DNA from: Synechococcus sp. SynAce01
GTDB taxonomy: Bacteria > Cyanobacteriota > Cyanobacteriia > PCC-6307 > Cyanobiaceae
Reading direction: 5' to 3'
DNA length: 64,000 bases
Assembly: GCF_001885215.1 (NCBI RefSeq)
Contig: NZ_CP018091.1
Coordinates: 186,001-250,000, forward strand
Part shown: in pieces, positions 8,344-40,591 of the stretch
Layout: each line of letters begins with the position of its first letter
Numbering within the stretch: position 1 is the first letter of the stretch
Position numbers and translations under genes: made by a program
The notes under the pieces: model-generated
Seen by the model: the letters and a program-made list of their open reading frames with translations, nothing else
Told to the model about the DNA's origin: nothing
The model's database searches: none

Positions 8344-9507
8344 TCAAGGCAGTTGTGGTCGAGGCTGTGGGGATGAAGCGTCGGCGAAGTTGAGGGGGTA
8401 GCCATTGGCCTGCCAAGCACGCAGACCGCCGCGAAGGTTGGCCACCTGGGGACGTCCTGCCTTGAGCAGGAGCTGGGTCCCCAGAGCCGAGCGACTGCCG
8501 GAGTGGCAGAGCACCACGACGGGTTGATCCTTTGGGATCTCAGCGGTCCGTGCCTCCAGTTCGGGCAAGGGGATCAGCAGGCTGCCGGCGATGCGACCAT
8601 CGGGACCATCGAATTCCTCGGCCGAGCGCACATCCACCACCACCGCCTCGCCCCGATGGCTGGCGAGCCAGGCCGGCGGCAGCTCGGGCAGGCCGGCATA
8701 ACTGCGCTGGACCTGCGCCCAGGAGGCACCTCCGGCCGTTGAATCCTCGCGGGGTTTGCCGGAACGCAGATTGCCGGGCAGGGCGATGGCGATGCGGTGG
8801 GGGTGGGGCAATTTCATCGTCTCCATGTAGACGACGAAATCGCGTTCGTTGGCCTCGCCACCGAGGCGGGCGTTGAAGGCCTTCTCCTCAGCCACCGAGG
8901 TGACGCCTCGGCCGGTGTAGTCGTGGCCTGGATAAAGCAGGCAGGACTCCGGCAACGAGAGGAGTTGCTCGGTGATCGAGCGGTAGAGGGTATGGGCGTC
9001 GCCCTGCTGGAAGTCGCAGCGGCCGCAGCCCCGCACCAGCAGGGCGTCGCCACAGAAGGCCAGGCTGTGGTCGTCGAGTACAAAGCTGAGACAGCCATTG
9101 GTGTGCCCCGGTGTGGCGCGCACCTCCAGGGCCCGCTCTCCGAAGGCCACCCGATCACCGTGCTGCAGGGGCAGGCTCACGTGTTCCGCCCCGACGCTGG
9201 CGGCCAAACCGATGGCGCTGCCGGTGGCGGCGTGCATCAGCCAGCTGCCCGTCACGTGGTCGGCGTGGGCATGGGTGTCGAGGCAGGCCAGCAGCTCGAT
9301 GCCCAGTTCGCGGATCAAGGAGAGATCGCGGTCGTGCTGCTCGAAAACCGAATCGATCAGCAGGCCCTGGCGGCTGCTGACATCGGCGAGTAGGTAGGTG
9401 AAGGTGCCGGTGCCGGCGTCAAAGAGCTGGCGGAAGAGCAGGGGCTGACCACCGGCTGCAGCGGCCAGGGACAGGGCGGCAGACGCTGGAGCGCGAGCAA
9501 CGGCCAT
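8344..9507 (-). CDS. persulfide dioxygenase-rhodanese fusion
   Basis: 387 residues from the ATG at 9507. The N-terminal ~240 residues are an ETHE1-like metallo-beta-lactamase domain with the metal motif THAHADH, a downstream TPGHTNGC and the ETHE1-type FCGDALLVRGCGRCDFQQG. The C-terminal ~110 residues are a rhodanese domain with active-site loop VVLCHSGSRSALG. ETHE1 enzymes oxidise glutathione persulfide to sulfite with O2 and iron; rhodanese fusions also move sulfane sulfur to or from thiosulfate. It is the first gene of the leftward operon and is divergent from the ArsR regulator. Confidence 0.88.
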   Translation of the reverse strand: MAVARAPASAALSLAAAAGGQPLLFRQLFDAGTGTFTYLLADVSSRQGLLIDSVFEQHDRDLSLIRELGIELLACLDTHAHADHVTGSWLMHAATGSAIGLAASVGAEHVSLPLQHGDRVAFGERALEVRATPGHTNGCLSFVLDDHSLAFCGDALLVRGCGRCDFQQGDAHTLYRSITEQLLSLPESCLLYPGHDYTGRGVTSVAEEKAFNARLGGEANERDFVVYMETMKLPHPHRIAIALPGNLRSGKPREDSTAGGASWAQVQRSYAGLPELPPAWLASHRGEAVVVDVRSAEEFDGPDGRIAGSLLIPLPELEARTAEIPKDQPVVVLCHSGSRSALGTQLLLKAGRPQVANLRGGLRAWQANGYPLNFADASSPQPRPQLP

Positions 9508-9642
9508 GGGAGAGCAACGGCAACTGCTATGAGCATAACCGCATAAAGAGCTTAGAAGCGTTTTTTTTATGAGCGCAGTGGAGTTAGGCGCCAGGGTTGA
9601 CATGTTTTTGGCATAATGCTTTGAGCGTCATAAAGACCATTC
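9508..9642. promoter_or_regulatory. divergent control region of sulfide operon and arsR gene
   Basis: The 135-bp gap between the dioxygenase gene and the ArsR gene is AT-rich against its surroundings. CATAAAGA occurs twice (9542-9549 and 9629-9636), each preceded by GCATAA a few to about fifteen bases upstream. TATG and CATA also flank the first copy as a short inverted repeat. These are candidate operator elements for the ArsR protein. A TTGACA-like hexamer is at 9597-9602, but no well-spaced -10 follows it. Inference from position and repetition. Confidence 0.45.
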
Positions 9643-9984
9643 ATGGCCGCCGCCGATTCCATGCCCAGCCCCGAGCTCCTCGAAGAACTCAGCGGTTTCT
9701 TTCGGCTCCTGAGTGAACCGGCACGCCTGCAGTTGCTCTGCCAGCTCAAGCACGGCAAGGCCAGGGATGTGACCTCCCTGATCGAAGCCACGGGCTTCAG
9801 CCAGTCGCACATCAGCCGTCAGCTCGGCCAACTACAGCGTGCCGGCCTGATCCGTTGCGAACGTGATGGCACGCGCCTGATTTACACGGTGGCCGACCCG
9901 TTGGTGGAGGAACTCTGCAACCTGGTTCAGGGCCGCCTGAGGCAGCGCTTGGAGAAGCAACTTCGGCAGCTGCAGGCGGTCTGA
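9643..9984 (+). CDS. ArsR-family repressor, likely sulfide/persulfide responsive
   Basis: 113 residues with a winged helix-turn-helix of the ArsR type (recognition region SQSHISRQLGQLQRAGLI, wing CERDGTRLIYTV). Cysteines occur at 33 (LLCQLKHG, early helix), 72 (IRCERDG) and 92 (EELCNL, last helix). Persulfide sensors SqrR/BigR of this family use one cysteine in an early helix and one in the last helix. The positions here are similar but not proven equivalent. The gene is divergent from the persulfide dioxygenase operon and convergent with sqr, which fits a sulfide regulator. Confidence 0.8.
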   Translation: MAAADSMPSPELLEELSGFFRLLSEPARLQLLCQLKHGKARDVTSLIEATGFSQSHISRQLGQLQRAGLIRCERDGTRLIYTVADPLVEELCNLVQGRLRQRLEKQLRQLQAV

Positions 9985-9998: not shown

Positions 9999-11291
9999 TC
10001 ACGGCTGCTGATGCGCCAGCCCCAGCCAGCGCACCAGCGGAGCCAACGGCTTGATGAAACGACTTTCGAGCAAGCGACCCTTCAGTACCCGATTCCAGTA
10101 CACCCAAGGGAACACCCGTGTTTCCACCAGCCACATGCTCCAGCGCTCCTTGGTTGGATCCACGAGGAAGGAGCTGACCGGCTGGAGCTGGTAGTCAAAT
10201 TCCGCCATCACCACGCGGCCAAAACCGGTGATCAACGGGCAGGCCGTATAGCCGTCGTACTGGGCCGGTAGGGGAGCAGCATCGAGCTGGGCCAGCAGGT
10301 TGGCCACCAACACCGGCGCCTGGCCACGGATGGCGGCCAGGCTCTTGGAGGTGGGCAGAGAGCTCACATCACCGAGGGCGAACACATCGGCAAAGCGCTT
10401 GTGCTGGCAAGTGAGCCTGTTCACGTCCACCCAGCCACCCGGTCCTTTGATGGCCAGGGGACTGGCGGCCATCACATCAGGGGCCGACATCGGCGGCACC
10501 ACATGCAAGAGGTCGAAGTGGATCGCCTCTTGCTGGGGCGGCTTACCTTCTGAGCTGACCTCGAAGATCGCCAGCTGTTCCTCGGCGCGCACCTCGATCA
10601 AGTTGTGGAGCAGACGGGTCTCGATCCCCCGGCGCGCCACGACGCGCTCAACCGTGGCGTTGTAGGCCTTCACCGGATAGAGATGGGCCAGGGCCGTGCA
10701 GAAGATCACCCGGGCGTTCACGCCCACACCGCTGGTGGCCTGGAAGATGTCATCGGCCAGATACATCACCTTCTGGGGAGCACCGCCGCATTTGATCGGG
10801 GTGGCAGGGTGGCTGAAAACAGCCGTACCACCCTTGAAGCTGCGGATCGCCTCCCAGGTGGTCGCGATGTGGGCGCGTGAGTAGTTGCTGATGATGCCGT
10901 AGCTGCCGAGTGCCTCCGGCAGCCCTTTGATCTGACTCCAATTGAGCTGGAGACCCATGGCCACCACCAGCACGTCGTAGCTGAGGGCTTCGCCGGCGGC
11001 CGTGATCACCCGGCGGGCCTGGGGTTCAAAACTTGCGGCGCTGCCCTGAATCCAGACAGCCCCAGCCGGGATCACGCTGGCCTCGGAACGGTGGGTCTGC
11101 TCGAGCGCCAACAGACCAGCTCCAGCCGGGATCCAGCCGGACTGGTACTCGTGGACGGCTGCGGGCTCCAGGATGGCCAGATCCAGGCCGGGCCGAGCCC
11201 GCAGCAACTGGGCCGCGACGATGAGCCCGCCGGAGCCGCCACCGACAATCAAAACCTGGAAGTGCCTTGCGCTGGAAGCAGATTCAGCCAT
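9999..11291 (-). CDS. sqr: sulfide:quinone oxidoreductase, type II
   Basis: 430 residues. An N-terminal FAD site (VLIVGGGSGGLIVAAQLL) is followed by the type II SQR hallmark HPATPIKCGGAPQKVMYLAD with its catalytic cysteine, and a C-terminal FAD-contact segment LGDVSSLPTSKS. The C-terminus has aromatic and basic residues for membrane docking. The enzyme oxidises sulfide to sulfane sulfur and reduces quinone. In human SQOR the second redox cysteine lies directly after GD; here that residue is valine, but a cysteine lies slightly upstream (LTCQHKRF). It is transcribed leftward towards the convergent ArsR gene. Confidence 0.87.
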   Translation of the reverse strand: MAESASSARHFQVLIVGGGSGGLIVAAQLLRARPGLDLAILEPAAVHEYQSGWIPAGAGLLALEQTHRSEASVIPAGAVWIQGSAASFEPQARRVITAAGEALSYDVLVVAMGLQLNWSQIKGLPEALGSYGIISNYSRAHIATTWEAIRSFKGGTAVFSHPATPIKCGGAPQKVMYLADDIFQATSGVGVNARVIFCTALAHLYPVKAYNATVERVVARRGIETRLLHNLIEVRAEEQLAIFEVSSEGKPPQQEAIHFDLLHVVPPMSAPDVMAASPLAIKGPGGWVDVNRLTCQHKRFADVFALGDVSSLPTSKSLAAIRGQAPVLVANLLAQLDAAPLPAQYDGYTACPLITGFGRVVMAEFDYQLQPVSSFLVDPTKERWSMWLVETRVFPWVYWNRVLKGRLLESRFIKPLAPLVRWLGLAHQQP

Positions 11292-12058: not shown

Positions 12059-12601
12059 TCATGGCCAATTGTTCGCTGATGGGATCACAGCTTGTTCTGC
12101 GGCTTCCCAGCCAACGAAACCAGGCGGGAAACCCTTGACACGATCAAAGCCCTGCAGCTGAAGGGCCATCACGGCCATGGCCGCTCGATACCCGGTTGAG
12201 CAATACACAACGACGTCTTGATCGTGCGGAACGGCATCAAGATGCCGTTCCAAGTCGCTGAGCGGAAGATTGATCGCTCCAGGGATGTGACCAACCTCAT
12301 ACTCCGCTGGATTACGAACATCGATAAGCATAGAATTGCCAGCTTCGATCAGGCTCTTCATGGCTGGAACCGAGCCGATCGCATGAAAATTTGCGGGCAG
12401 GAGATCAAGGTAGTGACCAACAGCTGTTTCTATTGGGGTTGGATTCACTGAAGTTGTTGGCACTGTGGTTGCAGCCGCCGTGTTAGCAGCCATGGCGATT
12501 GGATGGCTACCAATGCCAAGCAGAATAAAAGCCATCAAGGCAACGCCAAAAAGCGCTGAGGTGATCGAAGCCCAGATTTTCTGGTGGGGAACAGTGTTCA
12601 T
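12059..12601 (-). CDS. secreted or membrane-anchored rhodanese
   Basis: 180 residues from the ATG at 12601. A hydrophobic N-terminal segment (ALFGVALMAFILLGIGSHPIA) acts as signal peptide or anchor. The rhodanese domain follows, with SMLIDVRNPAEYEVGHIPGA and active-site loop VVYCSTGYRAAMAV. It would give a sulfurtransferase outside the cytoplasm, complementing the cytoplasmic rhodanese domains at 7823-9507. It lies at the edge of the sulfide locus but is separated from it by convergent genes. Confidence 0.78.
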   Translation of the reverse strand: MNTVPHQKIWASITSALFGVALMAFILLGIGSHPIAMAANTAAATTVPTTSVNPTPIETAVGHYLDLLPANFHAIGSVPAMKSLIEAGNSMLIDVRNPAEYEVGHIPGAINLPLSDLERHLDAVPHDQDVVVYCSTGYRAAMAVMALQLQGFDRVKGFPPGFVGWEAAEQAVIPSANNWP

Positions 12602-12715
12602 GCGCTCAGCAACTTTTGAACATTGGCGAAGCCAGTAAAAGCCTGCCAGCGATTCCAGCAGCACCGCCCCACCCCCGTCAGCACGGGGTAGACAACGTTA
12701 AGGGCGAAAGGCATC
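12598..12715 (-). pseudogene. decayed 3' part of a DUF4079 gene
   Basis: Translating the minus strand gives a C-terminus (WQAFTGFANVQKLLSA) nearly identical to that of the intact DUF4079 gene at 30830-31234 (WQAFTAIAIVQKLLSA), and the DNA is similar over the last ~65 bp. The preceding hydrophobic core is missing. A 25-bp segment at 12795-12819 is also identical to one just upstream of the intact gene, suggesting that both ends of a duplicated gene survive around a deletion. Confidence 0.6.
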
Positions 12716-13947: not shown

Positions 13948-14547
13948 ATGGTGAAGCCATCACCGGCAGCACCCGCTCTCTTGCCCGGCCGTTCTGCGGC
14001 CCGTGTGATGACTTCACTGACTGACGCCGAAATCCAGGCACTGCACGATGCTCTGAACGACGAGTATCACGCCTGGGCCACCTATACCCAGGTACTGGAG
14101 GACTTTGGGCCGGTACGCCCTTTTCAGCACATCCGCGATTCGGAGCAGCGCCATATTCAGGCCTTGCAGCATCTTTTTCACCGCTACAACCTCACCGTTC
14201 CTACCAATCCCTGGAGTGCGGTAAACCTGAGCCATTACGCCAGCGCGCAGGAGGCCTGTGAAGCCGGTGTGCAGGCAGAGATCGACAACGTTGATCTCTA
14301 CCAACGGATCCTGAGGGCTACCCAACGGCCAGAAATGCTACGGGTGTTTGAACGCCTGCGGTCGGCCTCCCAGAACCGCCACCTGGCTGCCTTTCAGCGT
14401 GCTGCAGCCCGGTTCAACTTCAACACAAATCCTGTGGCTGCCCAAGTGAACAATGCATGCCCAGGCGGTGGAGGCGGCGGTCGTCGAGGGCGAGGCCACT
14501 GCGGAAGGCAGCGGCATGGTCGAATGCCGCTGATACCTGAGCAATAA
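13948..14547 (+). CDS. DUF2202 ferritin-like protein
   Basis: 199 residues; an internal ATG at 14008 (MTSLTDAEIQAL) is a possible true start. The core is a four-helix ferritin-like domain with DEYHAWATYTQVLEDFG, then an EQRHIQALQHLFHRY helix carrying glutamate and histidine ligands, as in DUF2202. The tail is glycine, arginine and histidine rich with cysteines (CPGGGGGGRRGRGHCG), suggesting metal binding. A diiron oxidase or iron-storage role is inferred. An AT-rich upstream region (13890-13946) could contain the promoter. Confidence 0.72.
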   Translation: MVKPSPAAPALLPGRSAARVMTSLTDAEIQALHDALNDEYHAWATYTQVLEDFGPVRPFQHIRDSEQRHIQALQHLFHRYNLTVPTNPWSAVNLSHYASAQEACEAGVQAEIDNVDLYQRILRATQRPEMLRVFERLRSASQNRHLAAFQRAAARFNFNTNPVAAQVNNACPGGGGGGRRGRGHCGRQRHGRMPLIPEQ

Positions 14548-14686: not shown

Positions 14687-15667
14687 CTAAAGCTCGGACT
14701 CGCTGAGAGTTTCAGGTAATGGCCCTGTGGGTTTGGCTGAATTCCACATGCGCGTGCTGAGATAACGCTCCCCACCACTCGGTTGGATGACAACAATACG
14801 TTGACCTTGAAACTCAGGTCTCCGTCCGATCTGCACCGCGGCATACACTGCCGCGCCTGTTGAAATACCACTCAAAATCCCTTCTTCCTGAGCTAGTTGC
14901 CGTCCAGTTTCATAGGCTTGAGCCTCGGTAACTGTAATGATCTCATCGATCAAATCAATTCTCAAGACATCAGGAATGAAGCCCGCCCCAAGGCCCTGAA
15001 GATCGTGTTGTCCTGCAGGTTGCCCACTTAGTATGGCGCTATGGGACGGTTCAACAGCAACAATCTTGAGAAGAGGGTTCTGCTGCTTGAGGTATTGTCC
15101 AGCTCCCGTGAGCGTACCGCCTGTTCCAACGCCAACGACGAAAACCCCAAAATCGCCATCGGTGTCTTCCCAGATTTCAGGACCGGTGGTTTCATAGTGA
15201 ATTTTAGGGTTGGCAGGATTGCTGAATTGATGCGGCGAAAAAGCATTCGTCAACGTTCCCAGCAGATAGTTGGCATGGGCAATCGCTCCAGGCATATCAG
15301 CTTGAGCAGCGGTCAAGATAACCTCAGCACCATAGGCACGTAAGATCTGTTGCCGCTCTCTGCTCATATGTTCAGGCATCGTCAGAATCAGCCGATAGCC
15401 CCTTGCCGCACAGACCATGGCAAGACCAATCCCGGTATTCCCAGAGGTTGCTTCAACAATGGTGGAGATCCCTGGTTGGATCAACCCAGCATTTTCCGCC
15501 TCCATAATCATGCTCGCCGCAATTCGATCTTTGACCGACTGGGCAGGATTGAGACCTTCAAGCTTTAAGACGATATCTGCGTCACAGCCCCACCTCCGCG
15601 GCAGCCGTTGAAGCTGCACCAGAGGCGTGCGTCCGATCACTTCAAGCACACTGGGATAGATCTTCAT
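14687..15667 (-). CDS. cysK: cysteine synthase (O-acetylserine sulfhydrylase)
   Basis: 326 residues from the ATG at 15667. PLP fold type II with the lysine in the context NPAQSVKDRIAASMI (the usual SSVKDR), substrate loop VEATSGNTGIGLA, PLP-phosphate loop VGTGGTLTGAG and a C-terminal GISTGAAVYAA. It makes cysteine from O-acetylserine and sulfide. It starts 19 bp after the stop of the large sensor-like gene at 15687 and is probably cotranscribed with it. Lower GC than nearby genes; together with the sensor gene it may have been acquired. Distinguishing it from CysM or cystathionine beta-synthase-like forms would need alignment. Confidence 0.88.
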   Translation of the reverse strand: MKIYPSVLEVIGRTPLVQLQRLPRRWGCDADIVLKLEGLNPAQSVKDRIAASMIMEAENAGLIQPGISTIVEATSGNTGIGLAMVCAARGYRLILTMPEHMSRERQQILRAYGAEVILTAAQADMPGAIAHANYLLGTLTNAFSPHQFSNPANPKIHYETTGPEIWEDTDGDFGVFVVGVGTGGTLTGAGQYLKQQNPLLKIVAVEPSHSAILSGQPAGQHDLQGLGAGFIPDVLRIDLIDEIITVTEAQAYETGRQLAQEEGILSGISTGAAVYAAVQIGRRPEFQGQRIVVIQPSGGERYLSTRMWNSAKPTGPLPETLSESEL

Positions 15668-15686
15668 GGTGTTTCTGATGGGTCGT

Positions 15687-18353
15687 TCAAACAATGAGCC
15701 AGAAGCCACCGACTGTTAGTCCAACCATCAAGAGAAGGTGGGGCAAGTTGCTCAGTAGCGTCCGTTTTGTGATTCTCAACAGCGGATAGAGGCTGAACAC
15801 CAGAGCTGCAAGCAATGTCACGCCCTGTATGAAGACGGCTACATCAGCGCTCCAGGTGAGAATGGGTAAACCAATCCCGCTGAATCCAAGGCTGCGGGCA
15901 AAAACTGGCACAATCTTCCCCGCTTCTGTCATCGCCGCAGGCACATAGTGAGCCAGATTAAGAGCCAGGGTGAAAGGAAGATAAGCGTAAATAGCCGTGA
16001 GATAGGGAGGCTGGTCGGGATCAAATCGGCGCGCGATCGCATGCGCCAGATAGGTCGCCAAAGCCGGAAGACTGAGCAAGAGCAGTGCAATCACGGCGCT
16101 GCTCCAAAAATGCTGGGCATCAACCGGTACAGCAGGGAATCCAAATGCAGAGAGGATTCTTTCGCTGTGGTGCATCAGTACACCGCCCAAAAGCAACAAC
16201 AGGAGGGCCACTTCAGCCCAGAATCCCTGGTGATTCTCCAGCAGATCTGTGGTGGGAAAGCGCAGATTAAGCTGAACCGAACGATTCGGGCAGGCTTTCA
16301 AGCAGGTCATGCACAGAACACAATCACGATTATCTTGAAGCTGTGCGGGATGTGAATAGAGCGGGCAGCCCCCCGTCGCCTGCCCTTCGCTAGCAAGCGA
16401 ATCGGCAAAAGTAACAGTCGTAGCGTCGCTCCCCTTGTAGCATCCAAAAGTGCTGCATTGGCTACCACACACCTGTTGATCTGAGCGCAACTCAACCATG
16501 GCGAGTTTGGCAAACATGCCATTCATGCCACCGATGGGGCAGAGATAGCGGCACCACAAACGCCGCTCGTAGATCAGGCTACAAATCACCGCTCCTGCGG
16601 TAATCGCCAGGAGCAGCCAGGCCGAGAGATAGGCACTGTTGGGCAAGTCCCAGAGCTTTTCCCATAGATAAATCACCACAAAGCCGCCGAATAGCACCCA
16701 CGCCCCCCAGCGATTGAGCCATTGGGTTGGCCACGGCAGCTGCTGGCGAGGGAATAACCACAGCGAGGCGCGTCGCAACCATTCCGCTGTGATCATAAAG
16801 GGACAAACTGCACACCACAGCCGGCCAATGAAAACAAACAACAGCAAATATCCCGGCCACCACCAAGCCCAAAAGAAATTCAAGGTCACACTGCTCTCTC
16901 GTGTTTGCGGCCCCAAAAATCCAGCCAGGGTTACGGGCACAAAAAGCGCCATCATCACGATCCACAGACCTTCGGGGTACCAGCGGCTCAGCAAAAGACC
17001 CCTTAGCCAGGGAATCTGGGTGAGCAGGTCGACGCGGAAGGCATTTCTTGGCGACTGCACCGACCAAAGAGCCTGCTCTGGAATGATCAACTGCCCGGCA
17101 GGTGACATAATCACTGCACGGTTAAGAATCGCCGCTAGCTCTATGATGTTGCCGGGATAGGCATAGCTGATCAGGCGGCGTAGATCCGACTGAGAGAGGG
17201 TCATCAGTGGACGACTCTGGGCTTGACAAGACTGCGCGAGGAAGTGACTAGTAAAGTCAGGAATATCAGCCTTTCGCTGGGAAAGACTGAACAGTTTGAT
17301 CGTCATACCCTCAAAGCCTGAAAGTACCAACTTTTCAGGAGATGTAAAAATGAGCCGTACCAACGACGGAAAAGTTTTGGGGGTACTATTGGACGCAACA
17401 TTGAGCTGAATGTTGCCAGTGTTGCAATAGGCAATCAGACGAGCTTGATCCTCCACACTGAGAACCTGGAGGTTGCTCAGCAACAACGTTCCACGCTCCA
17501 TTAGTTCAATGAGCCCGGCCTCAGACCCTTCACGGCCAAATAACAAATCTGTGTTGAGGGCACCATGTGCTGATCGAGGCAGCTGCCCACAGTCCAGTTC
17601 TGCAAAAGGTTGGTCTGCCAGGCCCGAGCGACTATGAATCAGCCCGGCAACGAAGGTCTTACCAGAGCCCTTCGGCCCGAGCAGGACGACCGGCTGGAGC
17701 AGCGTGGCAGCTTGGTCAATCGTGTCGTTCAGCTTCTGGCTGAATTTGCTGCTGCCCAGGATGGTCTCGCCTGCTGGCACCGAGCAGATGTAATCCCGCA
17801 ACCCTTGGACGCGTTGCTGTTCCCGGGCGATACGGGTGCTAAAGGCATTGAGATCTTCAGCCAGCACAGTATTGAACAGATGCTCAATCTCGGTGTACTG
17901 CTGCGTGAGCTGCCGCAACAGACGCTGGGGCAAAAACCAGATTTCACTGGCTGTCAGGGCGATGGCCTGCGTCTGGTGTTGGGCGCTGCCTGGATTGGCC
18001 AGGAGCGAAACGTAGCCAAAAAGCTCACCCGCACTGCGCTGACGAATGAGTGATTGACCGATCGGAGAAAGCCGCTGAATCTCTACGGCCCCCCACTTCA
18101 GCAGATACAATCCCAGTGACGATTGACCTTCACGGTAGATCAGCGTTCCAGCTTCAACCCTCAGCAGGTGTAGCGATCGCGCTAATTCTTTTCGGGCAAG
18201 ATCAGGTAGCTGCCCCCAGAGGCGATGGAATTGCAGCCAGTTTGAGTACTCTTGAATGCGGCTCTCCTCTTGGGCAGGCATTCCTTCAAGGCCCATTCCC
18301 AGAGGTCGATGATCGAGGCCTGAAGGGTGAGGGCTGGGGAAAACACTAACCAT
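15687..18353 (-). CDS. cNMP-binding / degenerate sigma54-type AAA+ / polyferredoxin membrane protein
   Basis: 888 residues with three parts. About 45-165: cyclic-nucleotide-binding (CRP/FNR-type) sensor domain (IYREGQSSLGLYLLKWGAVE). About 195-425: AAA+ domain derived from sigma54 enhancer-binding proteins, with Walker A GPKGSGKT (226-233) and YPGNIIEL near 400, but no GAFTGA loop and a Walker B region reading GTLLLSNLQ without its acidic residues. About 450-888: NosR/NapH-like membrane part with several helices, cysteine pairs WCAVCP and WCRYLCPIGG, CGSQCSTFGC, and a ferredoxin motif CVLCMTCLKACP (678-689). It looks like a redox sensor or electron-transfer protein rather than a DNA-binding activator; no HTH is seen. 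HIP1-type GCGATCGC sites occur inside the gene. Confidence 0.8.
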   Translation of the reverse strand: MVSVFPSPHPSGLDHRPLGMGLEGMPAQEESRIQEYSNWLQFHRLWGQLPDLARKELARSLHLLRVEAGTLIYREGQSSLGLYLLKWGAVEIQRLSPIGQSLIRQRSAGELFGYVSLLANPGSAQHQTQAIALTASEIWFLPQRLLRQLTQQYTEIEHLFNTVLAEDLNAFSTRIAREQQRVQGLRDYICSVPAGETILGSSKFSQKLNDTIDQAATLLQPVVLLGPKGSGKTFVAGLIHSRSGLADQPFAELDCGQLPRSAHGALNTDLLFGREGSEAGLIELMERGTLLLSNLQVLSVEDQARLIAYCNTGNIQLNVASNSTPKTFPSLVRLIFTSPEKLVLSGFEGMTIKLFSLSQRKADIPDFTSHFLAQSCQAQSRPLMTLSQSDLRRLISYAYPGNIIELAAILNRAVIMSPAGQLIIPEQALWSVQSPRNAFRVDLLTQIPWLRGLLLSRWYPEGLWIVMMALFVPVTLAGFLGPQTRESSVTLNFFWAWWWPGYLLLFVFIGRLWCAVCPFMITAEWLRRASLWLFPRQQLPWPTQWLNRWGAWVLFGGFVVIYLWEKLWDLPNSAYLSAWLLLAITAGAVICSLIYERRLWCRYLCPIGGMNGMFAKLAMVELRSDQQVCGSQCSTFGCYKGSDATTVTFADSLASEGQATGGCPLYSHPAQLQDNRDCVLCMTCLKACPNRSVQLNLRFPTTDLLENHQGFWAEVALLLLLLGGVLMHHSERILSAFGFPAVPVDAQHFWSSAVIALLLLSLPALATYLAHAIARRFDPDQPPYLTAIYAYLPFTLALNLAHYVPAAMTEAGKIVPVFARSLGFSGIGLPILTWSADVAVFIQGVTLLAALVFSLYPLLRITKRTLLSNLPHLLLMVGLTVGGFWLIV

Positions 18354-18705: not shown

Positions 18706-19707
18706 TCATTCGGTGCTCACCTTGCCACGGAAGGCAATATAGTTATAGATATTATAAAATAGCATGATTGGGATCAGTACACCAATAAAGGTGAGCATGA
18801 ACACCAGCGAACTCACCGACGCTGAGGCCTGAAAGATCGTGATCGACGGCGGAATCACCGCCGGGAAAACCATTACACCTAAGCCAGCAAAGCTAACGAC
18901 AAACAACAGAACGGTATAAACAAATGGCCATATCTCCTGCTCCATCGCCAAGCTGCGGAACAGCTGCACGATCAAGGCAATGCCCACGAGAGGCAACACC
19001 ACAAAAAAGGGCAGAAAGGAGGGATCGAACAGTCGTTCGCGTAGCGACTCCGACACGAAGGGTGCCGTGACCGTGATCAGCAGGGCCCCACCAAGGGTGG
19101 TGGCAGCCGCCAGACGGGCGGTGCGAACGTGGAGCCGCTGCAGTTCACCGCTGGTTTTAAGGATCAGGTAAGTGGAACCGATCAGAACGTAGCCCTGGAT
19201 GAGCGTAATAGCCACCAGCAGGCTGCTGGGGTTGACCCAGATCCAGACGGAGCCGGTGAAGTGGCCAGCGGCATCGGTGGGGATGCCGGAGAGAACGGTG
19301 CCAAGGCAGATGCCCTGAGAGGCGGCAGCCACCAAGCTGCCGATGCCGAACATCAGATTCCAGGGACGCTTATTGATGGAGTTCTCGCGGAATTCAAAAG
19401 CGACGGCCCGCAGGATCAGTCCCAGGATCATCAGATAGATGGGGCCATAGAGCGCCTTGAGGATGGTGCCGTAGGCCAGCGGAAAGGCCCCAAATAGAGC
19501 ACCGCCCATCAGCACCAGCCAGGTTTCGTTGGCATCCCAGACATTGCCGAGGCTGGTCATCAGCACGCTGCGCTGGGTCTCACCCGTTGAGGTAAGCGAC
19601 AGGATGCCCACCCCCAGATCAAAGCCATCGAGAATCACATAGAGCAGCAGGAACAGGGCCAGGATCACGAACCAGACCGTGGGCATGAACCATTCGAGGA
19701 AGTCCAT
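18706..19707 (-). CDS. cydB: cytochrome bd oxidase subunit II
   Basis: 333 residues with about eight membrane helices and the CydB hallmarks: LLLYVILDGFDLGVGIL near the N-terminus (quinol oxidase subunit II signature), then GNVWDANETWLVLMGGALFGAFP. It forms the bd-type quinol oxidase with CydA. Start ATG at 19707, 2 bp after the cydA stop. bd oxidases tolerate sulfide and have high oxygen affinity, which suits the neighbouring sulfide genes. Confidence 0.93.
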   Translation of the reverse strand: MDFLEWFMPTVWFVILALFLLLYVILDGFDLGVGILSLTSTGETQRSVLMTSLGNVWDANETWLVLMGGALFGAFPLAYGTILKALYGPIYLMILGLILRAVAFEFRENSINKRPWNLMFGIGSLVAAASQGICLGTVLSGIPTDAAGHFTGSVWIWVNPSSLLVAITLIQGYVLIGSTYLILKTSGELQRLHVRTARLAAATTLGGALLITVTAPFVSESLRERLFDPSFLPFFVVLPLVGIALIVQLFRSLAMEQEIWPFVYTVLLFVVSFAGLGVMVFPAVIPPSITIFQASASVSSLVFMLTFIGVLIPIMLFYNIYNYIAFRGKVSTE

Positions 19708-19709: not shown

Positions 19710-21119
19710 TCAGGCGCTCGGGGTGGGGTTGGCAAGAACGCTGGCCCCTCCACCATTCGGGGGCTCGAGGCTGAGATTCGGGCCCTTGGCAATGATTTGG
19801 GAACCGAAGTAGAGCGCAAAGATCAGTAGCACCGTGTAGATCACGGCGAAACCGCTCAAGCTGGTGAGCACCTCTGCGGCGGGCAGGACCGAGGCCGCGT
19901 CAGCGGTGCGCAGCTGGCCATAGACGGTCCAGGGCTGGCGGCCCACGCAACGCACCACCCAGCCCGATTCGATCGCCAGGTAGCCGGCCGGGGCCGAGAG
20001 GATCCAGGCCCAGCTGAACCAGGGCCACTGGCCTAAGCTGTCGGCGCTGAGGCGGCCGCGCCACCAGAACAGCAGGCTGAGGGCCATCAGGGCCGCTGCT
20101 GCCAGGCCGATCGCCACCATCACCCGGAAGGAATAGAAGAGCAGCCCCACCATGTGCGGCCGTTGGTCGGCGGGCCAGCTATTGAGACCCCGCAACGGCT
20201 GGCTGAGCTGGGGCCGTGTTTCCAGGATCCAGCTGAAGGCTCCAGGCAGCGCCAGGCTCCAGCGGTTGCTGCCGCTAGCCTCATCAGGGGCTGCCAGCAC
20301 GCTCCAGGCGGGGGAGCTGCCGGCGGCCTGATCGTCCCAGAGGGCCTCGATTGCCGCCAGTTTGGTGGGCTGGTATTCGGCCACCTGCACAGCGCTTTCG
20401 TGGCCGGCCAGAATCTGCAGCGGCGCTACCGCCAGCAGGATCACCAGCGCCAGCTTGAAGGAGAACAGGAAAAACTCCGGCGCCTTGCTGCGCATCAGCG
20501 ACCAGGCACTGATCGCCGCCACTACGAGCATCGAAGTTTCCAGCGTGGCCAGGGCCATGTGGATCACACTTTTGACCATGAAGGGGTTATTGATCGCAGC
20601 AAAATAGTTCTGCACCTGGAAGTGACCATCGGAGAAGGTGCCGCCCGATGGGGTCTGCAGCCAGGAGTTGGCGCTGAGGATCCAGAACACCGAGAGGTTG
20701 GCGCCGAAGGCCACCATCACCGTGGAGAGGAAGTGGATGGCCGGCGGCACCCGCGTCCAGCCGTACAGCATGATCCCGAGAAAACCGGCCTCGAGCATGA
20801 AGGCCATCGCCCCCTCAAAGCCCAGCACTGAGCCGAAGAAATCACCGGCGAATTCGGATAGGGGCGCCCAGTTGGTGCCGAACTGGAACTCCATCGGCAG
20901 CCCCGAGGCCACGCCGATGCCGAAGTTGAGCACGTAGAGCTTTGCCCAGAAGCGGCACTGGTGGTAATACAGGGGGTTGCGTGTGCGCAGCCAGATGGCT
21001 TCGAGTACCACCAGATAGATCGCCAGCCCAGTGGAGAGAACGGGCCAGAGCATGTGAAAGATCGCCGTCAGGGCGAACTGCAGCCGTGAGAGGACGATGG
21101 TGTCGGCAAGCCAGTTCAT
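19710..21119 (-). CDS. cydA: cytochrome bd oxidase subunit I
   Basis: 469 residues from the ATG at 21119 (MNWLADTIVLSRLQFALTA). Contains the low-spin/high-spin heme ligand helices (FHMLWP with His22; GLPMEFQFGTNW; FEGAMAFMLEAGFLG) and the conserved GRQPW motif, with a short periplasmic quinol loop of the kind found in CIO-like and cyanobacterial enzymes. Quinol oxidation coupled to O2 reduction without proton pumping. Upstream lies a 320-bp spacer that must carry the promoter; any link to the ArsR or polyferredoxin protein is unknown. Confidence 0.94.
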   Translation of the reverse strand: MNWLADTIVLSRLQFALTAIFHMLWPVLSTGLAIYLVVLEAIWLRTRNPLYYHQCRFWAKLYVLNFGIGVASGLPMEFQFGTNWAPLSEFAGDFFGSVLGFEGAMAFMLEAGFLGIMLYGWTRVPPAIHFLSTVMVAFGANLSVFWILSANSWLQTPSGGTFSDGHFQVQNYFAAINNPFMVKSVIHMALATLETSMLVVAAISAWSLMRSKAPEFFLFSFKLALVILLAVAPLQILAGHESAVQVAEYQPTKLAAIEALWDDQAAGSSPAWSVLAAPDEASGSNRWSLALPGAFSWILETRPQLSQPLRGLNSWPADQRPHMVGLLFYSFRVMVAIGLAAAALMALSLLFWWRGRLSADSLGQWPWFSWAWILSAPAGYLAIESGWVVRCVGRQPWTVYGQLRTADAASVLPAAEVLTSLSGFAVIYTVLLIFALYFGSQIIAKGPNLSLEPPNGGGASVLANPTPSA

Positions 21120-21440
21120 GGAGAAGCTGCGGCGGAGAGGTGCGGGAGCGACACCGTGACAACAAGCCGGCCAGCTTGCCAAGCTTTGATAGTGGCACCA
21201 GTCTGTGGCAAGCTAGGACAAGCCGTGGGGGTGCAATGGAATGTTGCAATCACCATTCTGTTGCTGGCGAATTCACAAAGGGGATGTTTCCACCCTTTGC
21301 TGGCCCTTTGCGGCCGTGGCCCGTTCCGCGGAGTCTGCATAGGCTGCCTTTGACGCTTGTTGGTCGACCTCATACCCCAACCATCCACGGCGCGCAGGTT
21401 CTGCGCTTTGCTCTGCAGCATTGCCCTGAGCGGCCTGGTG
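21120..21440. other. spacer upstream of cydAB, no gene seen
   Basis: About 320 bp between the cydA start and the IS630 relic. No convincing frame or RNA was recognised. The cydAB promoter should lie in the left part. The right part may be degraded insertion-sequence DNA. Confidence 0.5.
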
Positions 21441-22884: not shown

Positions 22885-24278
<1,394 letters not shown>

Positions 24279-24279
<1 letters not shown>

Positions 24280-24668
24280 TGGAGTTGCAGGTGCTGGCGC
24301 CCTTTGAGGAGATCCTTCGGGCCGATGTCGTTAAGGTGCTGGCGGAGAGCCAAAGCGGATACTTCGCTCTGCTTCCGCATCATGCCGATCTGGTGAGCAC
24401 CCTGGTCCCAGGGATTCTTTCATATGAATACTTAGATGGTCGCGATGGATTCGTGGCAGTGGACGAGGGACTTCTGCTCAAGAGAGGGAGTCAGTTGATG
24501 GTCACAGTTCGTCAAGGCGTGGCAGGAGGATCCCTGGAGACGTTGCAAAAGACAGTGGTGGAAAAGTTTCAGGCCCTTGATGTGCGGGAAGAGCAGGCTC
24601 GTGCCGTACTGGCGAGACTAGAAGCCAGCTTTGTGCATGGCCTGGCGGGGCTGGGAGAGTGGGGATGA
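24279..24668 (+). CDS. atpC: N-ATPase epsilon subunit
   Basis: 129 residues. Beta-sandwich N-terminal domain (LQVLAPFEEILRADV, then GYFALLPHHADLVSTLVPGIL) as in F-type epsilon, followed by a short helical tail. Central-stalk subunit. Overlaps atpD at its start and atpQ at its stop, so expression is coupled. Confidence 0.88.
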
Positions 24669-24985
24669 GACCGACTAGCGGCAAGAGTTTCCGACCCCGG
24701 CAAAAGCCACCATCGCTTGCCTCTCAAGTGCGGTATAAGGCCGAAAGTCGGCTTCGCGCCAAGGCTGAGGGTGATCGGAACATCGTGATTAGGGGGCTTG
24801 GTCTATCTGGAATGGTGGGCTGGTCTGTAACCCTGCCGGCACTGCTTGGTCTTGCGCTGGGGATGTGGATTGACAGGCGTTTCCCCAACTCCTATTCATG
24901 GACATTAATGTTCTTAATACTCGGAATCGTGCTGGGCTGTTGGAACGCCTGGCGATGGATGCAACAGCAGCAGGACGAGCCATAA
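24665..24985 (+). CDS. atpQ: N-ATPase AtpQ (AtpI-like membrane protein)
   Basis: 106 residues from the ATG at 24665 overlapping the atpC stop (ATGA); a GTG at 24659 is possible. A basic cytoplasmic N-terminus precedes two membrane helices (LPALLGLALGMWIDRRFPN and LMFLILGIVLGCWNAWRWM), as in AtpI/AATPase gene 1 proteins. AtpQ is a constant member of N-ATPase operons and is thought to help assemble the c-ring or handle cations. Confidence 0.83.
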   Translation: MRPTSGKSFRPRQKPPSLASQVRYKAESRLRAKAEGDRNIVIRGLGLSGMVGWSVTLPALLGLALGMWIDRRFPNSYSWTLMFLILGIVLGCWNAWRWMQQQQDEP

Positions 24986-24997
24986 TGGTCAGGTCCT

Positions 24998-25324
24998 TTG
25001 TCTCTGAATTCTAGCGTGGCAGCACTTCTCGCTAACGTTTCACTTCTGATAGCCCTGCTTGTCGGGTTTGTACTGGGTCTGTGCTTTTTCACCTCTCTAT
25101 GGCTCACAGTGCGCCATCTACCTCGCTCCTCCAATCCGGTGCTACTGATGCTTGGAAGCGGGCTGGCAAGGGTTGCCATAGCAGTTCCTGTTTTCTATTT
25201 TGTGGCCGCAGGCCAGTGGCAACGTGTGGCTGCCGCCCTACTGGGTTTTGTACTCGCCCGCTCTCTGCTGATCCTCCGCTGGCGCCCCATCCCTTCAACA
25301 GAGCCTACTTTTCTGGATGACTAA
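24998..25324 (+). CDS. atpR: N-ATPase AtpR
   Basis: 108 residues from TTG at 24998, with an in-frame GTG at 25016 as alternative. Three membrane helices, the second with LLMLGSGLARVAIAVPVFYF carrying an intramembrane arginine, typical of N-ATPase AtpR. AtpR is found only in N-ATPase operons and is proposed to interact with the c subunit glutamates. Only 3 bp separate its stop from atpB. Confidence 0.83.
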   Translation: MSLNSSVAALLANVSLLIALLVGFVLGLCFFTSLWLTVRHLPRSSNPVLLMLGSGLARVAIAVPVFYFVAAGQWQRVAAALLGFVLARSLLILRWRPIPSTEPTFLDD

Positions 25325-25327
25325 GGC

Positions 25328-26041
25328 ATGCAGCTAAGCCCCGATACGAACGTGATTGCAAGCTGGGGGCCTTGGACACTCAGTGCCACCATAGTCTTCA
25401 CCTGGCTCACGATAGCCGTGCTGGTCGGCTTCTCCCTGTGGTTAGGGCGAGGCCTAAGCGCCGAAGGCATTCCCTCCCACGTGCAATCTATTGTTGAGAC
25501 TATTGTTGAGGAAATCTGCCAACAAATTGAGGATGTTACACAGCAAGATCCAACTCTTTACCTACCCTTCGTTGGTAGCCTATTTTTATTCATTGTAACC
25601 GCCAACATTCTGACAATCATTCCCGGCTTCGAGCCGCCAACCGGTTCACTTTCGACTACCGTAGCACTTTCGATTTGTGTATTTTTTGCGGTTCCCATTT
25701 ATGGCATTGGTCATTTAGGCTTGCGCCGCTACCTACTCTCCTACTTGAAGCCAACACCGCTGATGTTGCCCTTTCAGATCATCGGTGAGTTCTCTCGAAC
25801 GGTTGCGCTTGCAATGCGTCTGTTTGGCAATATAATGAGCGGAAGCCTGATCACAGCTATCCTTCTGTCCATTGTGCCGTTCTTTATCCCGGCTCTGATG
25901 CAGGCGATGGGACTTGTTTTTGGAGTGATTCAGGCCTATGTCTTCGCGGTGCTTTCGTTGGTCTATATCTCATCAGCGGCTAGCATTAGTGATGAATCCC
26001 GGGGTTACTCCCCCGTCAAAAAAACTGGAGCCCCCCCATGA
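25328..26041 (+). CDS. atpB: N-ATPase a subunit
   Basis: 237 residues, five to six membrane helices. Contains the essential arginine helix (EFSRTVALAMRLFGNIMSG) and a C-terminal YVFAVLSLVYISSA. Forms the ion half-channels at the c-ring interface. Overlaps atpE by 4 bp. Confidence 0.92.
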   Translation: MQLSPDTNVIASWGPWTLSATIVFTWLTIAVLVGFSLWLGRGLSAEGIPSHVQSIVETIVEEICQQIEDVTQQDPTLYLPFVGSLFLFIVTANILTIIPGFEPPTGSLSTTVALSICVFFAVPIYGIGHLGLRRYLLSYLKPTPLMLPFQIIGEFSRTVALAMRLFGNIMSGSLITAILLSIVPFFIPALMQAMGLVFGVIQAYVFAVLSLVYISSAASISDESRGYSPVKKTGAPP

Positions 26042-26307
26042 GTGACCTCGCCCTAATAGGCATAGCCTCCATCGCTGGAGCCGCCTTTACGATGGCCGTG
26101 GGCTCGATTGGCCCTGCCCTGGGGGAAGGCTGGGCGGTTGCACGCGCTTTGGGAGCGTTGGCCCAGCAGCCTGATAAGGCCAATGTAATTACCCGCACCC
26201 TCTTTGTTGGGCTGGCGATGGTTGAGTCAACCGCCATTTATTGCCTGGTTGTAGCGATGGTCCTGATTTTCGTTAATCCATTTTGGATTTATTTCAAAGG
26301 ACTCTGA
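26038..26307 (+). CDS. atpE: N-ATPase c subunit with Na+-type ion site
   Basis: 89 residues, two helices. Helix 1 has GSIGPALGEGWA with Glu30. Helix 2 has LAMVESTAIY with Val62, Glu63, Ser64, Thr65 and Tyr68. The ES(T) motif and nearby tyrosine are the set seen in Na+-binding c-rings, and the extra glutamate in helix 1 is characteristic of N-ATPases. Ordinary cyanobacterial H+ c subunits lack this combination. Na+ specificity is inferred from these residues. Confidence 0.92.
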   Translation: MSDLALIGIASIAGAAFTMAVGSIGPALGEGWAVARALGALAQQPDKANVITRTLFVGLAMVESTAIYCLVVAMVLIFVNPFWIYFKGL

Positions 26308-26308
26308 C

Positions 26309-27103
26309 ATGCTTGTTGACTGGTTTATTGTTGCGGCCCAGATTTTTAATTTTTTACTCCTTGTAGCCCTGCTTCGCTGGGTTCTCTACGATCCAATCCG
26401 CAATGTAATTCGAAAGCGTCGGGATCGAATCATGCACGACATCGAGAAAGCAAAAGAATTTCAGCAAACGGCCCAGGGGGAAATGGAGGAGCAGCAGCGC
26501 CTCCGCCGTGATCTTGAAGCGCATCATCAGCAGCTCCTCGCCGAGGCCAATGCCGACGTGCAGGCGCAGCGTAATGATCAGCTCAGTCGCATGCGCAATG
26601 AGCTGGATGAGCTACGCCATCGCAGTTATCTGTCGCTCAAAGAAGAGAAGGAGGCCTGCCTCCTGACTGTGAGTCAGCGAGTCCTTCAGGAGAGTCAGTC
26701 CATTGCACGCAAGGCGCTAAAGGATCTAGCCAACGCCAATCTTGAGCATCAGATTGTGGATGTGTTTCTCGATAGGCTGAAGCATCTTGAGCCCTTCGAG
26801 CGAAATTCAATTCAGGTAAAGGATGGGAAAAGTAATGGACCTATCACGGTCCGTACCTCATTCCCCCTTTCAGCGGAACTCCGTCAGGCTCTGATTGATC
26901 AGTTGCTTGCGTCTCTCGCTTGCAACGGATGTGTAACATTCATCGATGATCCCCTGTTCCCCATTGGCATCCAGCTTGGGATTGAAGGGAAAGCGATCCG
27001 CTGGACGCTGGATCACTACCTTAGCGATCTCGATCAACATCTAACCAAGGCCCTCCTTCCGAACAGCGGCTCCCTTCATGACTCAGCGACAACATCAGCT
27101 TGA
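26309..27103 (+). CDS. atpF: N-ATPase b subunit (long, includes delta-like role)
   Basis: 264 residues, longer than a usual b subunit. One N-terminal membrane helix ([20 protein letters not shown]), a long coiled-coil stalk (about 40-160), and a C-terminal globular part (about 170-250). There is no separate atpH (delta), so the C-terminal part probably takes its place, as in other N-ATPase operons. Starts 1 bp after atpE. Confidence 0.87.
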
Positions 27104-28634
27104 AGCTGCTTTGCTCGGGGCGCTGGATTCGCTGAGTCGTTCCGTCGCCGTGTTCTGCCCGGCCCTTTCCGTACAGGAGATTGGCGTCACCCTTTCTGTA
27201 CGAGGTGGAATTGCTCAAGTGAGTGGACTTCCTAATGTGCGATCTGATGAACTCGTCAGTTTCTCTTGCCAGGATGAGCGATCAGGCACGTCATCCCTTC
27301 TTGGAATCGCCTTCAATCTCGACCCTGAGGAAGTAGGAGTGGTCCTGCTGGGGGACGGTCGTCATCTCAGTGCCGGGGATCCGGTCGTTCGAACAGGCCG
27401 GGTCGTGGAGGTGCCGGTTGGTGAGGGTCTGCTGGGCCGCACGATCACGGCCTTAGGTGAACCACTTGACGGATTGGGAGCCGTCGAATTCAGCGCGATG
27501 CGCCCAATCGAACGCGAAGGTCCGGCGATCCTGGAGCGGGCGGCAGTAACGGTGCCACTTCAGACCGGCTGGAAAGTTGTTGATGCACTGATTCCGATCG
27601 GCCGAGGCCAGAGGGAGCTCATCATCGGAGATCGTCAGACAGGAAAGACTCTGCTGGCTATTGATACGATACTCAATCAGAAAGGCAAGGACGTTATATG
27701 CATTTACTGCGCGATGGGACAGCGTTCAGCCTCCATCGCGAACGTGATTGCGACCCTCTCAAAATATGGCGCAATGGAGTATAGCATCGTAATTGTTGCC
27801 TCGGGACAGGATTCACCAGGGCTGCGCTATGTTACACCTTATGCCGCTACCACGATGGCAGAATACTTTATGGAGAAGGGGCGTGATGTGCTGATTGTTT
27901 ATGATGATCTCACCCACCACGCACGCACGTATCGGGAGATCTCCCTTCTGCTGCGGCGAACCCCGGGACGTGAAGCTTATCCTGGGGATATCTTCTATCT
28001 GCATTCGCGCTTACTGGAGCGGGCTACTCACCTTTCAACCGCCCTGGGCGGGGGATCTCTTACTGCGCTGCCAATCATCGAAACCCAGGCACAGAATATC
28101 TCAGCTTACGTCCCAACCAATCTAATTTCTATTACCGACGGGCAAATATATCTCTCTTCTGAACTGTTCCAAATGGGAATCTTCCCAGCTGTGGACGTTG
28201 GTAAATCGGTCTCCCGAGTCGGCTCAAAAACCCAGCTCGCCTCCCTTCGGGAGATTAGTCCTGGCCTGCGCTTAGCCTATGCCCAGTATCAGGAGATACA
28301 ACTCTTCACTCGTTTTGGAACCCAACTTGATTCCAGTACCCGTGAAATCTTGCAGCGAGGGCACCAGATCCGGGATGTGCTCCGGCAGGGGCTGCACAAC
28401 CCCTTGTCAGTGTCTGACCAAGTTGCCATGTTGTTTGGGACGGATGCGGGGCTCTTTGACGAGCTGCCGAAGATGAGTCTGCAACAAAAGGAAGCGAGTA
28501 TTCTGAGCCATGTGCGTCAGGAGCTCGATGCCCTTTGCCAGAGGATTGATGCCGGCGAGCCCCTCACGGCAGACGATCGTGAGGCACTCTGCGTGACGAT
28601 TGGCTCCGCCATTGGCGGAGCCTCAAAGCCATAA
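27078..28634 (+). CDS. atpA: N-ATPase alpha subunit
   Basis: 518 residues. Walker A GDRQTGKT, then [12 protein letters not shown], then a Walker B-type [13 protein letters not shown] and the alpha-specific [16 protein letters not shown]. Non-catalytic nucleotide-binding subunit. Overlaps the 3' end of atpF by 26 bp. Confidence 0.93.
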
Positions 28635-28638
28635 AAGC

Positions 28639-33575: not shown

Positions 33576-35388
<1,813 letters not shown>

Positions 35389-35399
<11 letters not shown>

Positions 35400-36711: not shown

Positions 36712-37157
36712 TCTCATTCCATAATGCCCAGTGCAATTTATAGGATTGAGTCAGTCGGACGCCAGCTAGGGATTGGCGTTGCTGGAAGTCGCTATGTGTA
36801 TTTAAGCGCAGTTGCGAAAGAGAACAGCGCGGCGGTGGCTCCTTACTGCATCCCGAACGAATTGATTTGTGGCGAACTCGGACGCTTTCTCCGCCTGCCC
36901 GTTCCTCCAGTGGGAATAGTTTCGCAGGCGAGTGGCGGGCCTCTTTTCGCTTCGCTGGACTTCAACTTAACCGGGAATACACTGCCGCCGGTGAATGTGG
37001 CGAATTGCGTGAGGGTTTTGCCGTCATTGTCAGCGGGGTTACTACTCTTTGACATTTGGATAGCGAACTGTGACCGGCATGCGGAGAACTTCTCAGTGGA
37101 TTTCTACGGCATTCCATTGCAAATGAACATCTTTGACCACAGTCACGCTCTCTTAGG

Positions 37158-38201: not shown

Positions 38202-38546
38202 CTTAGGCTACGCCGCAGGACAGGGCGAGACACGCTTGACGACGCTGCGCGACCGGCTAGGAATTTCCTGGACGACGAATAATCCAGTGGACTCTGGTCA
38301 ACACCGGCATTGCTTGCTCGATGCCGTGAACGATGACTATTACTTTGATTACTGGCTCAGGAGAATCAGGGCAACGCCGGATTTCTATATCGAAGAAGTC
38401 TGCGAAGACGCCAAGCCTTACGGACTAACGGCACAAGAAGTCGCCGCTGCGATTGACTTTTTGAAGGCAAGGCGAGATAATATGAAAGATATCATCAGCA
38501 ACAACCAGGCCGAGTTTTCGGCCATCCAGGCTTGGAGGCTGCCATT

Positions 38547-39413: not shown

Positions 39414-39445
39414 ACAATTCCTCCATTGTTATCCCCGGCCCACAT

Positions 39446-40584: not shown

Positions 40585-40591
40585 TTCCCGC

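Follow-up and report, generated by a model that had tools for sequence, protein, structure and literature searches.

A CRP-like/AAA+ membrane polyferredoxin and its paired cysteine synthase lineage in Synechococcus sp. SynAce01 and other cyanobacteria

Why should a cysteine synthase gene lie directly behind the gene for a membrane iron-sulfur protein that carries a regulator-like head? The question is raised by a stretch of 64,000 nucleotides from Synechococcus sp. SynAce01 (contig NZ_CP018091.1, positions 186,001 to 250,000; hereafter the window), in which an 888-residue protein is encoded just upstream of cysK on the same strand. We refer to this protein as CAF-A, CAF being a working name for the combination of a CRP-like domain, an NtrC-fold AAA+ domain and a membrane polyferredoxin, and CAF-A denoting the clade of the window protein. 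A sequence-only reading of this DNA had already proposed such a protein, with a sigma54-type AAA+ domain and a NosR/NapH-like 4Fe-4S membrane module, and both Pfam and the invariant cysteines described below agree with it. The pair formed by CAF-A and its cysK, here called cysK*, is real and conserved, and apparently undescribed.

The pairing of CAF-A with a separate cysteine synthase lineage

CAF homologues (E ≤ 1e-20) were found in 261 of the 388 genomes of the class. Clade A, with at least 56% identity to the window protein, occurs in 45 genomes; this number and all counts of CAF-A genomes below hold among the matches listed, where fragmentary copies may be missed and where one genome (G061) contributes a partial copy with an internal stop. 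Clade B (~40% identity) is the commonest form, and clade C comprises shorter proteins within the window's own family. The class genomes listed split at ≥56% versus ≤45% identity, the named loci reaching down to 54.7%, and clades A and B are separated in a tree computed without L075, L076 and five proteins of less than 600 aa (L123, L132, L135, L138 and L148). By identity and tree, CAF-A represents a paralogue in a family widespread among cyanobacteria. The scan for named loci required an exact YERRLWCR or LCPIGGMN stretch and retained 80 of 460 relatives, the closest being a metagenome-assembled genome of Cyanobium sp. CZS48M (83% identity).

A cysK gene on the same strand, starting within 1.5 kb downstream of CAF-A, was found at 42 of 69 testable clade-A loci, at 29 of them within 100 nt, and the link persisted at 34 of 56 loci when near-duplicates were merged at 92% DNA identity. 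The corresponding count for the sister clade B was 0 of 15. Loci were considered testable with at least 900 nt of downstream sequence, which excluded 7 of 76 clade-A and 1 of 16 clade-B loci; L128 and L132 (near-duplicates in which pieces of cysK lie 1.5 kb downstream) and L079 (with cysK* 10 kb upstream) were counted as non-adjacent. Within the DNA examined per locus, none of the 76 clade-A loci had a cysK on the opposite strand.

The linked enzymes are 66–89% identical to the window CysK, and the remaining CysK proteins listed across 40 relatives, among them two of the window genome, reach at most 60%. At a threshold of E ≤ 1e-121, this CysK* lineage was detected in 29 of the 388 genomes, all of which are among the 45 with a recognised CAF-A (Fisher's test, 1.4e-32). 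The pairing is neither random in context nor unique to this strain, the two outcomes that the sequence-only reading had named as speaking against it. Moreover, the trees of CAF-A and CysK* are correlated (r = 0.87, n = 34 of 45 pairs), and the maximum in 500 shuffles was 0.23. A search of 72,556 plasmid records gave just two cysK matches above 60% identity, each next to one of the only two near-full-length CAF-A genes there, on Pseudanabaena galeata pPg_03 and on Aulosira laxa plasmid2, which is predicted to be conjugative. As judged from identities, co-occurrence and tree agreement, the linked CysK is a separate, dedicated lineage paired with CAF-A. A connection to the srp sulfur genes of pANL was dropped: no plasmid CysK above 60% identity occurred outside the two CAF-A plasmids, in a collection whose content of pANL was unchecked.

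The window cysK product is a cysteine synthase A by a curated model (TIGR01139, 421 bits against a cut-off of 351, scanned from an upstream GTG), with predicted O-acetylserine sulfhydrylase activity. The list of open reading frames (ORFs) starts the gene at that GTG (15709). Since the ATG at 15667 sits exactly 19 nt past the CAF-A stop, as had been claimed, and since a spacing of +18/+19 recurs in loci L075, L078, L080, L084 and L092, the GTG is unlikely to be the true start and the ATG is probably the one used.

Domain architecture of CAF-A

Pfam detected four domains above gathering cut-offs, namely cNMP_binding (65–153), Sigma54_activat (198–322), AAA_lid_14 (359–422) and Fer4_5 (578–617). 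The fold of the AAA+ domain is that of NtrC (1ny5_A; Z 23.6, root-mean-square deviation (rmsd) 2.3, 228 aligned residues; Foldseek/VIA). To follow its motifs we used alignments of 51 rows, made of the window protein, 35 of 52 named clade-A proteins that are 800–940 aa long and all 15 clade-B proteins of that length. CAF resembles the NtrC-family enhancer-binding proteins in its fold and in the Walker A Lys, present in all 51 rows, but differs from them in the motifs on which they act. The catalytic Walker B Glu is found in none of the 51 rows and is replaced by Asn in 47 (33 of 36 in clade A, 14 of 15 in clade B). The residue before it is Asp in 22 of 36 clade-A rows, Asn in all 15 clade-B rows and Ser in the window protein, whose pair reads Ser-Asn where Asp-Glu is expected. 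The sigma54-contact motif GAFTGA was likewise absent from all 51 rows, and "degenerate", the word used for this domain in the sequence-only reading, suits the AAA+ sequence. With the Lys kept and the catalytic Glu missing, the head may bind ATP and is unlikely to hydrolyse it.

By Pfam, CAF-A contains no helix-turn-helix (HTH), either at the C-terminus or after the CRP-like domain, where the AAA+ domain comes next, and no other output domain (kinase, receiver or cyclase). Sigma54 (PF04552) gave no match in the window genome, in a search whose control detected it in 4 of 14 genomes. Nothing in these motif and domain searches indicates that CAF-A acts on DNA or sigma54. With the CRP/FNR regulators CAF-A shares the cNMP-binding domain, but not HTH_Crp. 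In the alignment, the 36 clade-A rows mostly carry Tyr where the cAMP-contact signature of the phosphate-binding cassette calls for Glu, and (Tyr/His)-Gln-Thr in place of its Arg-Ser/Ala; at these residues the CRP-like domain does not keep that signature. It was undetected in three clade-A members (L133, L134 and L139) and in a clade-C copy (L077), which all retain the AAA lid and the Fe-S parts, and according to the tree the loss in the three is separate from that in clade C. This clade-C copy is a second CAF-like protein of the window genome (G000:C1:337864-339948), and its larger neighbours did not cluster with the neighbours of CAF-A loci.

The C-terminal half is a membrane polyferredoxin, in which 12 cysteines (514, 517, 601, 605, 629, 633, 638, 663, 678, 681, 684 and 688) are invariant in 37 of 37 clade-A proteins, in an alignment that excluded loci L074–L077. 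The same 12 are present in the clade-C copy. Those of the loop are predicted to hold two 4Fe-4S clusters, and Fer4 matches to it are weak and below cut-off. The predicted topology is of about four transmembrane (TM) helices, the Fe-S loop and about five further TM helices, which would place the loop on the cytosolic side. AlphaFold modelled the full protein with a mean predicted local distance difference test score (pLDDT) of 80.8, falling under 50 in loop residues 626–683, and the membrane part alone with a predicted TM-score (pTM) of 0.80.

Where does this core belong? The broad NapH/NosR-like signature (a membrane protein with CxxCP, CxxxCP and two sets of 4Fe-4S cysteines) is present. NapH/MauN is a family of quinol dehydrogenase ferredoxin subunits, and its model (TIGR02163) matches residues 505–695, but with 36 bits against a cut-off of 213, and CAF adds about five C-terminal TM helices and a 440-residue head. 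NosR, which is linked to quinones, is also a membrane polyferredoxin; its model (NF046105) gave a weak match of 20.4 bits against a cut-off of 1000, and its FMN-binding domain did not appear in the Pfam scan of CAF.

The closest relative outside the cyanobacteria, from Deinococcus ficus, is 32.6% identical. Stand-alone relatives of the membrane core (23–27% identity) occur on haloarchaeal plasmids in varied contexts (L160, L193, L194 and L195), and one scan with a single protein confirmed no viral relative.

The sulfide and low-oxygen setting

The SQR-like gene (sulfide:quinone oxidoreductase, SQR), the ArsR gene, the persulfide-dioxygenase-like/rhodanese fusion and further rhodaneses all lie within 10 kb of the window cysK (Table 1). 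At other CAF-A loci the pair stands among genes for SQR, TauE, heme oxygenase, HemN, PsbA, Rieske and Tll0287-like proteins and further genes, including a protein with the Pfam Rubrerythrin domain that we presume to be AcsF-like. At least one of ten strict sulfide/low-oxygen markers was present at 23 of 39 clade-A loci with flanks of at least 15 kb versus 0 of 11 clade-B loci. By cysK adjacency, these 39 divide into 23 loci with an adjacent cysK, 18 of them with a marker, and 16 loci without, 5 of them with a marker; this tally takes 43 loci as adjacent overall, since L117, with its 622 nt of downstream sequence, is included. Clade-B loci showed no recurrent context except one gene, in 4 of 15. 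Across genomes, any SQR was found in 40 of the 45 with CAF-A versus 108 of 343 others (p = 8.6e-14), an association driven by one SQR type. Taken from gene content, these results support a link between CAF-A and a sulfur/low-oxygen setting in many loci.

Table 1. Features of the CAF-A/cysK* locus and its surroundings in the window
Feature	Position	Strand	Evidence or remark
CAF-A, 888 aa, ATG start	15687..18353	(-)	ORF call, Pfam, alignments, structure prediction
cNMP/CRP-like domain, residues 65-153	17895..18161	(-)	Pfam PF00027, 1e-14
NtrC-fold AAA+ and lid, residues 198-422	17088..17762	(-)	Pfam, fold match 1ny5_A
Walker A GPKGSGKT, residues 226-233	17655..17678	(-)	Lys kept 51/51
Walker B position, residues 288-295	17469..17492	(-)	catalytic Glu 0/51
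Membrane polyferredoxin core, residues 440-888	15690..17036	(-)	TM prediction, alignment
C514-x-x-C517-P motif	16803..16814	(-)	Cys invariant 37/37
C601-x3-C605-P motif	16539..16553	(-)	Cys invariant 37/37
Predicted Fe-S loop, Cys 629, 633, 638, 663; 678, 681, 684, 688	16290..16469	(-)	invariant 37/37
Spacer, 19 nt, CAF-A stop codon to cysK ATG	15668..15686	(-)	
cysK* (cysteine synthase A of separate lineage), 326 aa counted from ATG	14687..15667	(-)	TIGR01139
Rhodanese	12059..12664	(-)	domain match
SQR-like flavoprotein (sulfide:quinone oxidoreductase type)	9999..11291	(-)	SQR_III model 190.9 bits, below cut-off 525
ArsR-family regulator, possible sulfide/persulfide sensor	9643..9984	(+)	domain/model matches
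Persulfide-dioxygenase-like metallo-beta-lactamase fused to rhodanese	8344..9603	(-)	domains; ST/SDO Blh weak, 86 of 625 bits
cydB, cytochrome bd oxidase subunit II	18706..19707	(-)	upstream of CAF-A, same strand
cydA, cytochrome bd oxidase subunit I, start codon unsettled	19710..21182	(-)	below full-protein cut-offs, E. coli-type models

A comparable arrangement is partly described, with sqr beside arsR and near a micro-oxic psbA (Grim and Dick 2016, PMC5061849). The genes of those cyanobacterial clusters overlap with the neighbourhoods of CAF-A, but the main text of that article does not contain "cysteine synthase", "cyclic nucleotide" or "4Fe-4S". Synechococcus PCC 7002 responds to polysulfide by inducing pdo, rhod, tauE and cysK2 (PMC12466478), and this cysK2 is a candidate for the CysK* lineage. 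The Family 2 encapsulins, which combine CRP-like domains and sulfur genes, were set aside, the literature passages available concerning a different protein. Neither CAF-A nor the pair was found described in the literature searched by title and opening of the abstract. As subscription papers lay mostly outside that search, this is weak evidence, and the earlier statement that no role had been described holds on those terms. In sum, membrane polyferredoxins are a known kind of protein, the sulfide-island setting is partly known, and the pair itself is apparently undescribed.

Several further observations concern the window. The cysteines of the ArsR protein (9643–9984) are placed, by eye, in a way reminiscent of the persulfide sensors BigR/SqrR. 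A DUF2202 ferritin-like protein (13948–14547) adjoins cysK, with related genes in the vicinity of two further CAF-A loci. At 49156–52208, a psbA copy (359 aa) stands beside Tll0287-like, cytochrome b561-like and DUF3122 genes, in a setting that resembles the psbA neighbourhoods in other CAF-A loci; it is 81–82% identical to three other full-length copies of the genome, where a further copy (G000:C1:2611962-2613037) appears broken into two pieces, one with an internal stop. Near the island, at 22900–29607, lies an ATP synthase-type operon, by eye probably an N-ATPase (Na+ pump), and type I restriction-modification-like genes, also assigned by eye, lie at 33576–47595, possibly split by inserted DNA. 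The G+C fraction (GC) is 0.53–0.57 over most of 14–30 kb (0.61 at 20–22 kb) versus 0.60–0.68 in the first 14 kb, and the 14–30 kb stretch may be acquired DNA, though GC is low at 36–40 and 60–62 kb as well. In ten window stretches, no operator palindrome (9-base arms, at most one mismatch, spacer of at most 8) was shared upstream of CAF, cydA, SQR and other genes.

What CAF-A may do together with CysK*

We tentatively favour, at a little short of an even chance, a reading of CAF-A as a membrane electron-transfer protein that carries a sensor head and works with CysK* in sulfide and low-oxygen physiology. CAF-A, distantly NapH/NosR/FtrD-like, would carry single electrons via 4Fe-4S clusters on the cytosolic side, the plastoquinone pool being their probable donor or acceptor. 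The CRP-like and AAA+ head would serve as a non-hydrolysing allosteric or oligomerising sensor of ATP or redox state, not as a transcription activator. The protein would have been recruited with its own cysteine synthase, at least partly via mobile sulfide/low-oxygen islands, and would adjust the redox state of sulfur (or of Fe-S or metal targets) at the membrane, and CysK* would capture the sulfide so formed in cysteine, in parallel with SQR and persulfide dioxygenase. A bolder form, in which the two make up an undescribed sulfide-handling redox unit, with the head gating the exchange of electrons of cytosolic sulfur with the quinone pool and with CysK* fixing the sulfide, is possible but doubtful. 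The sequence-only reading had suggested that the protein senses redox or sulfur state and passes electrons or controls cysteine synthesis at the membrane; the sulfur/redox link is supported, as is the cysK pairing, and the two proposed activities gained no such backing. It had mentioned neither the sulfide/low-oxygen genes around the locus nor the clade-B members of a widespread family that have no cysK link.

A number of results weigh against the reading we favour. No adjacent cysK was found at 27 of the 69 testable clade-A loci, 18 of which group in a single region of the tree with many Nostocales among its members, so that CAF-A can exist without cysK. CysK* was undetected at threshold in 16 of the 45 CAF-A genomes, although in at least two of these (L059 and L037) a shortened or contig-truncated cysK adjoins CAF-A, and in the 16.7 kb viewed of P. 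galeata pPg_02, a CAF remnant is accompanied by no annotated cysK. The p-values ignore the shared descent of the loci and therefore overstate independence. As to the setting, 16 of the 39 long-flanked clade-A loci have no marker, and since the markers were picked after the clade-A loci had been viewed, the contrast with clade B is biased in favour of the link; no association with CAF-A was seen for the SQR type of the window by itself (p = 0.14), and five CAF-A genomes have no SQR match. The NapH and NosR models score far under their cut-offs, and comparison of the membrane-core model with the PDB gave no confident match (best Z 5.5, 122 aligned, rmsd 5.8). Lastly, serine acetyltransferase docks to CysK through a C-terminal Ile, and we discarded the idea that CAF-A does so: among clade-A proteins, this residue ends 13 of the 41 that have a cysK no more than 2.3 kb away versus 15 of 31 others, and being no commoner in the linked proteins it leaves docking unsupported.

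Alternatively, CAF-A could be a membrane redox or sulfide sensor and not an electron-transfer enzyme: the CRP/AAA head would learn the state of the quinones or of sulfide from the Fe-S clusters and pass the signal to a protein partner, perhaps CysK* in a moonlighting role as transducer. That the head has two modules of regulatory type is consistent with this, as is the combination of a kept Walker A Lys with mostly Asn for the Walker B Glu, which resembles an ATP-locked switch. An ArsR gene in the neighbourhood examined at 11 of 76 clade-A loci implies that some islands are regulated. We consider this sensor unlikely: Pfam detects no output domain, CysK docking finds no conserved C-terminal Ile, and the CRP-like part is missing from the clade-C copy and three clade-A members that retain the Fe-S core, so that sensing by this domain is dispensable.

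It is rather unlikely that CAF-A handles metals as FtrD of the FtrABCD iron-transport system does, reduction or oxidation of iron or another metal keeping Fe-S enzymes supplied when sulfide precipitates metals. In its favour, two of eight non-cyanobacterial relatives inspected, from Azospirillum (35% identity, across one third of the core) and Rhizobium (24%), adjoin FTR1 permease, cupredoxin and iron-transport genes. We presume these to be FtrD, their records reading "4Fe-4S binding protein", and they share the polyferredoxin membrane core but match only the Fe-S part, without the CRP/AAA head. One relative, from a haloarchaeon, is flanked by a metal cation transporter and a P-type ATPase. 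Synechocystis slr0593, which is probably a clade-B member, may also bear on metals. It falls under iron deprivation (PMC3516471). However, the Deinococcus ficus relative has no such genes within 6 kb, the contexts of the remaining relatives vary, one having a TauE gene, and FeoB was found at only 3 of 76 clade-A loci versus CysK at 46.

Quite unlikely is a mere co-inheritance of CAF-A and cysK* as neighbours on mobile islands, both helping under sulfide with no action on each other. Islands do occur on plasmids, one of them predicted to be conjugative, the gene order around the pair varies, and CysK* is not detected in every CAF-A genome. GC is 0.54–0.57 at 14–20 kb versus 0.60–0.66 in the preceding 10 kb, though similarly low values recur at 22–30, 36–40 and 60–62 kb of the window. 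Yet the pair keeps its adjacency and order while other neighbours shuffle, and none of the 29 cysK* genomes is without CAF-A. That CAF-A regulates transcription in the manner of sigma54-type or CRP-type proteins, which certain database names (the Aulosira annotation reads "nitrogen assimilation regulatory protein") and the AAA+ fold might suggest, is very improbable and was rejected, with no HTH, GAFTGA or catalytic Glu in the protein and no sigma54 detected in the genome.

What the favoured reading of CAF-A as an electron-transfer partner of CysK* would mean reaches beyond this strain. The literature on cyanobacterial photosynthesis under sulfide, as sampled from partial sources, centres on SQR and psbA, and an uncharacterised Fe-S protein with a dedicated CysK points to an unstudied part of how cyanobacteria cope with sulfide, a matter that bears on early-Earth ecology, present mats and soda lakes. 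A conserved, mobile two-gene unit is found in many sulfide islands, within a widespread family for which the literature searched, seen in part, describes no function, and cysK* can be used as a marker for sulfide/low-oxygen islands. If the redox unit in its bolder form is true, it would be a third route, beside SQR and persulfide dioxygenase, for photosynthesis under sulfide, and the redox protein from which CAF-A derives would be the widespread paralogue of clade B.

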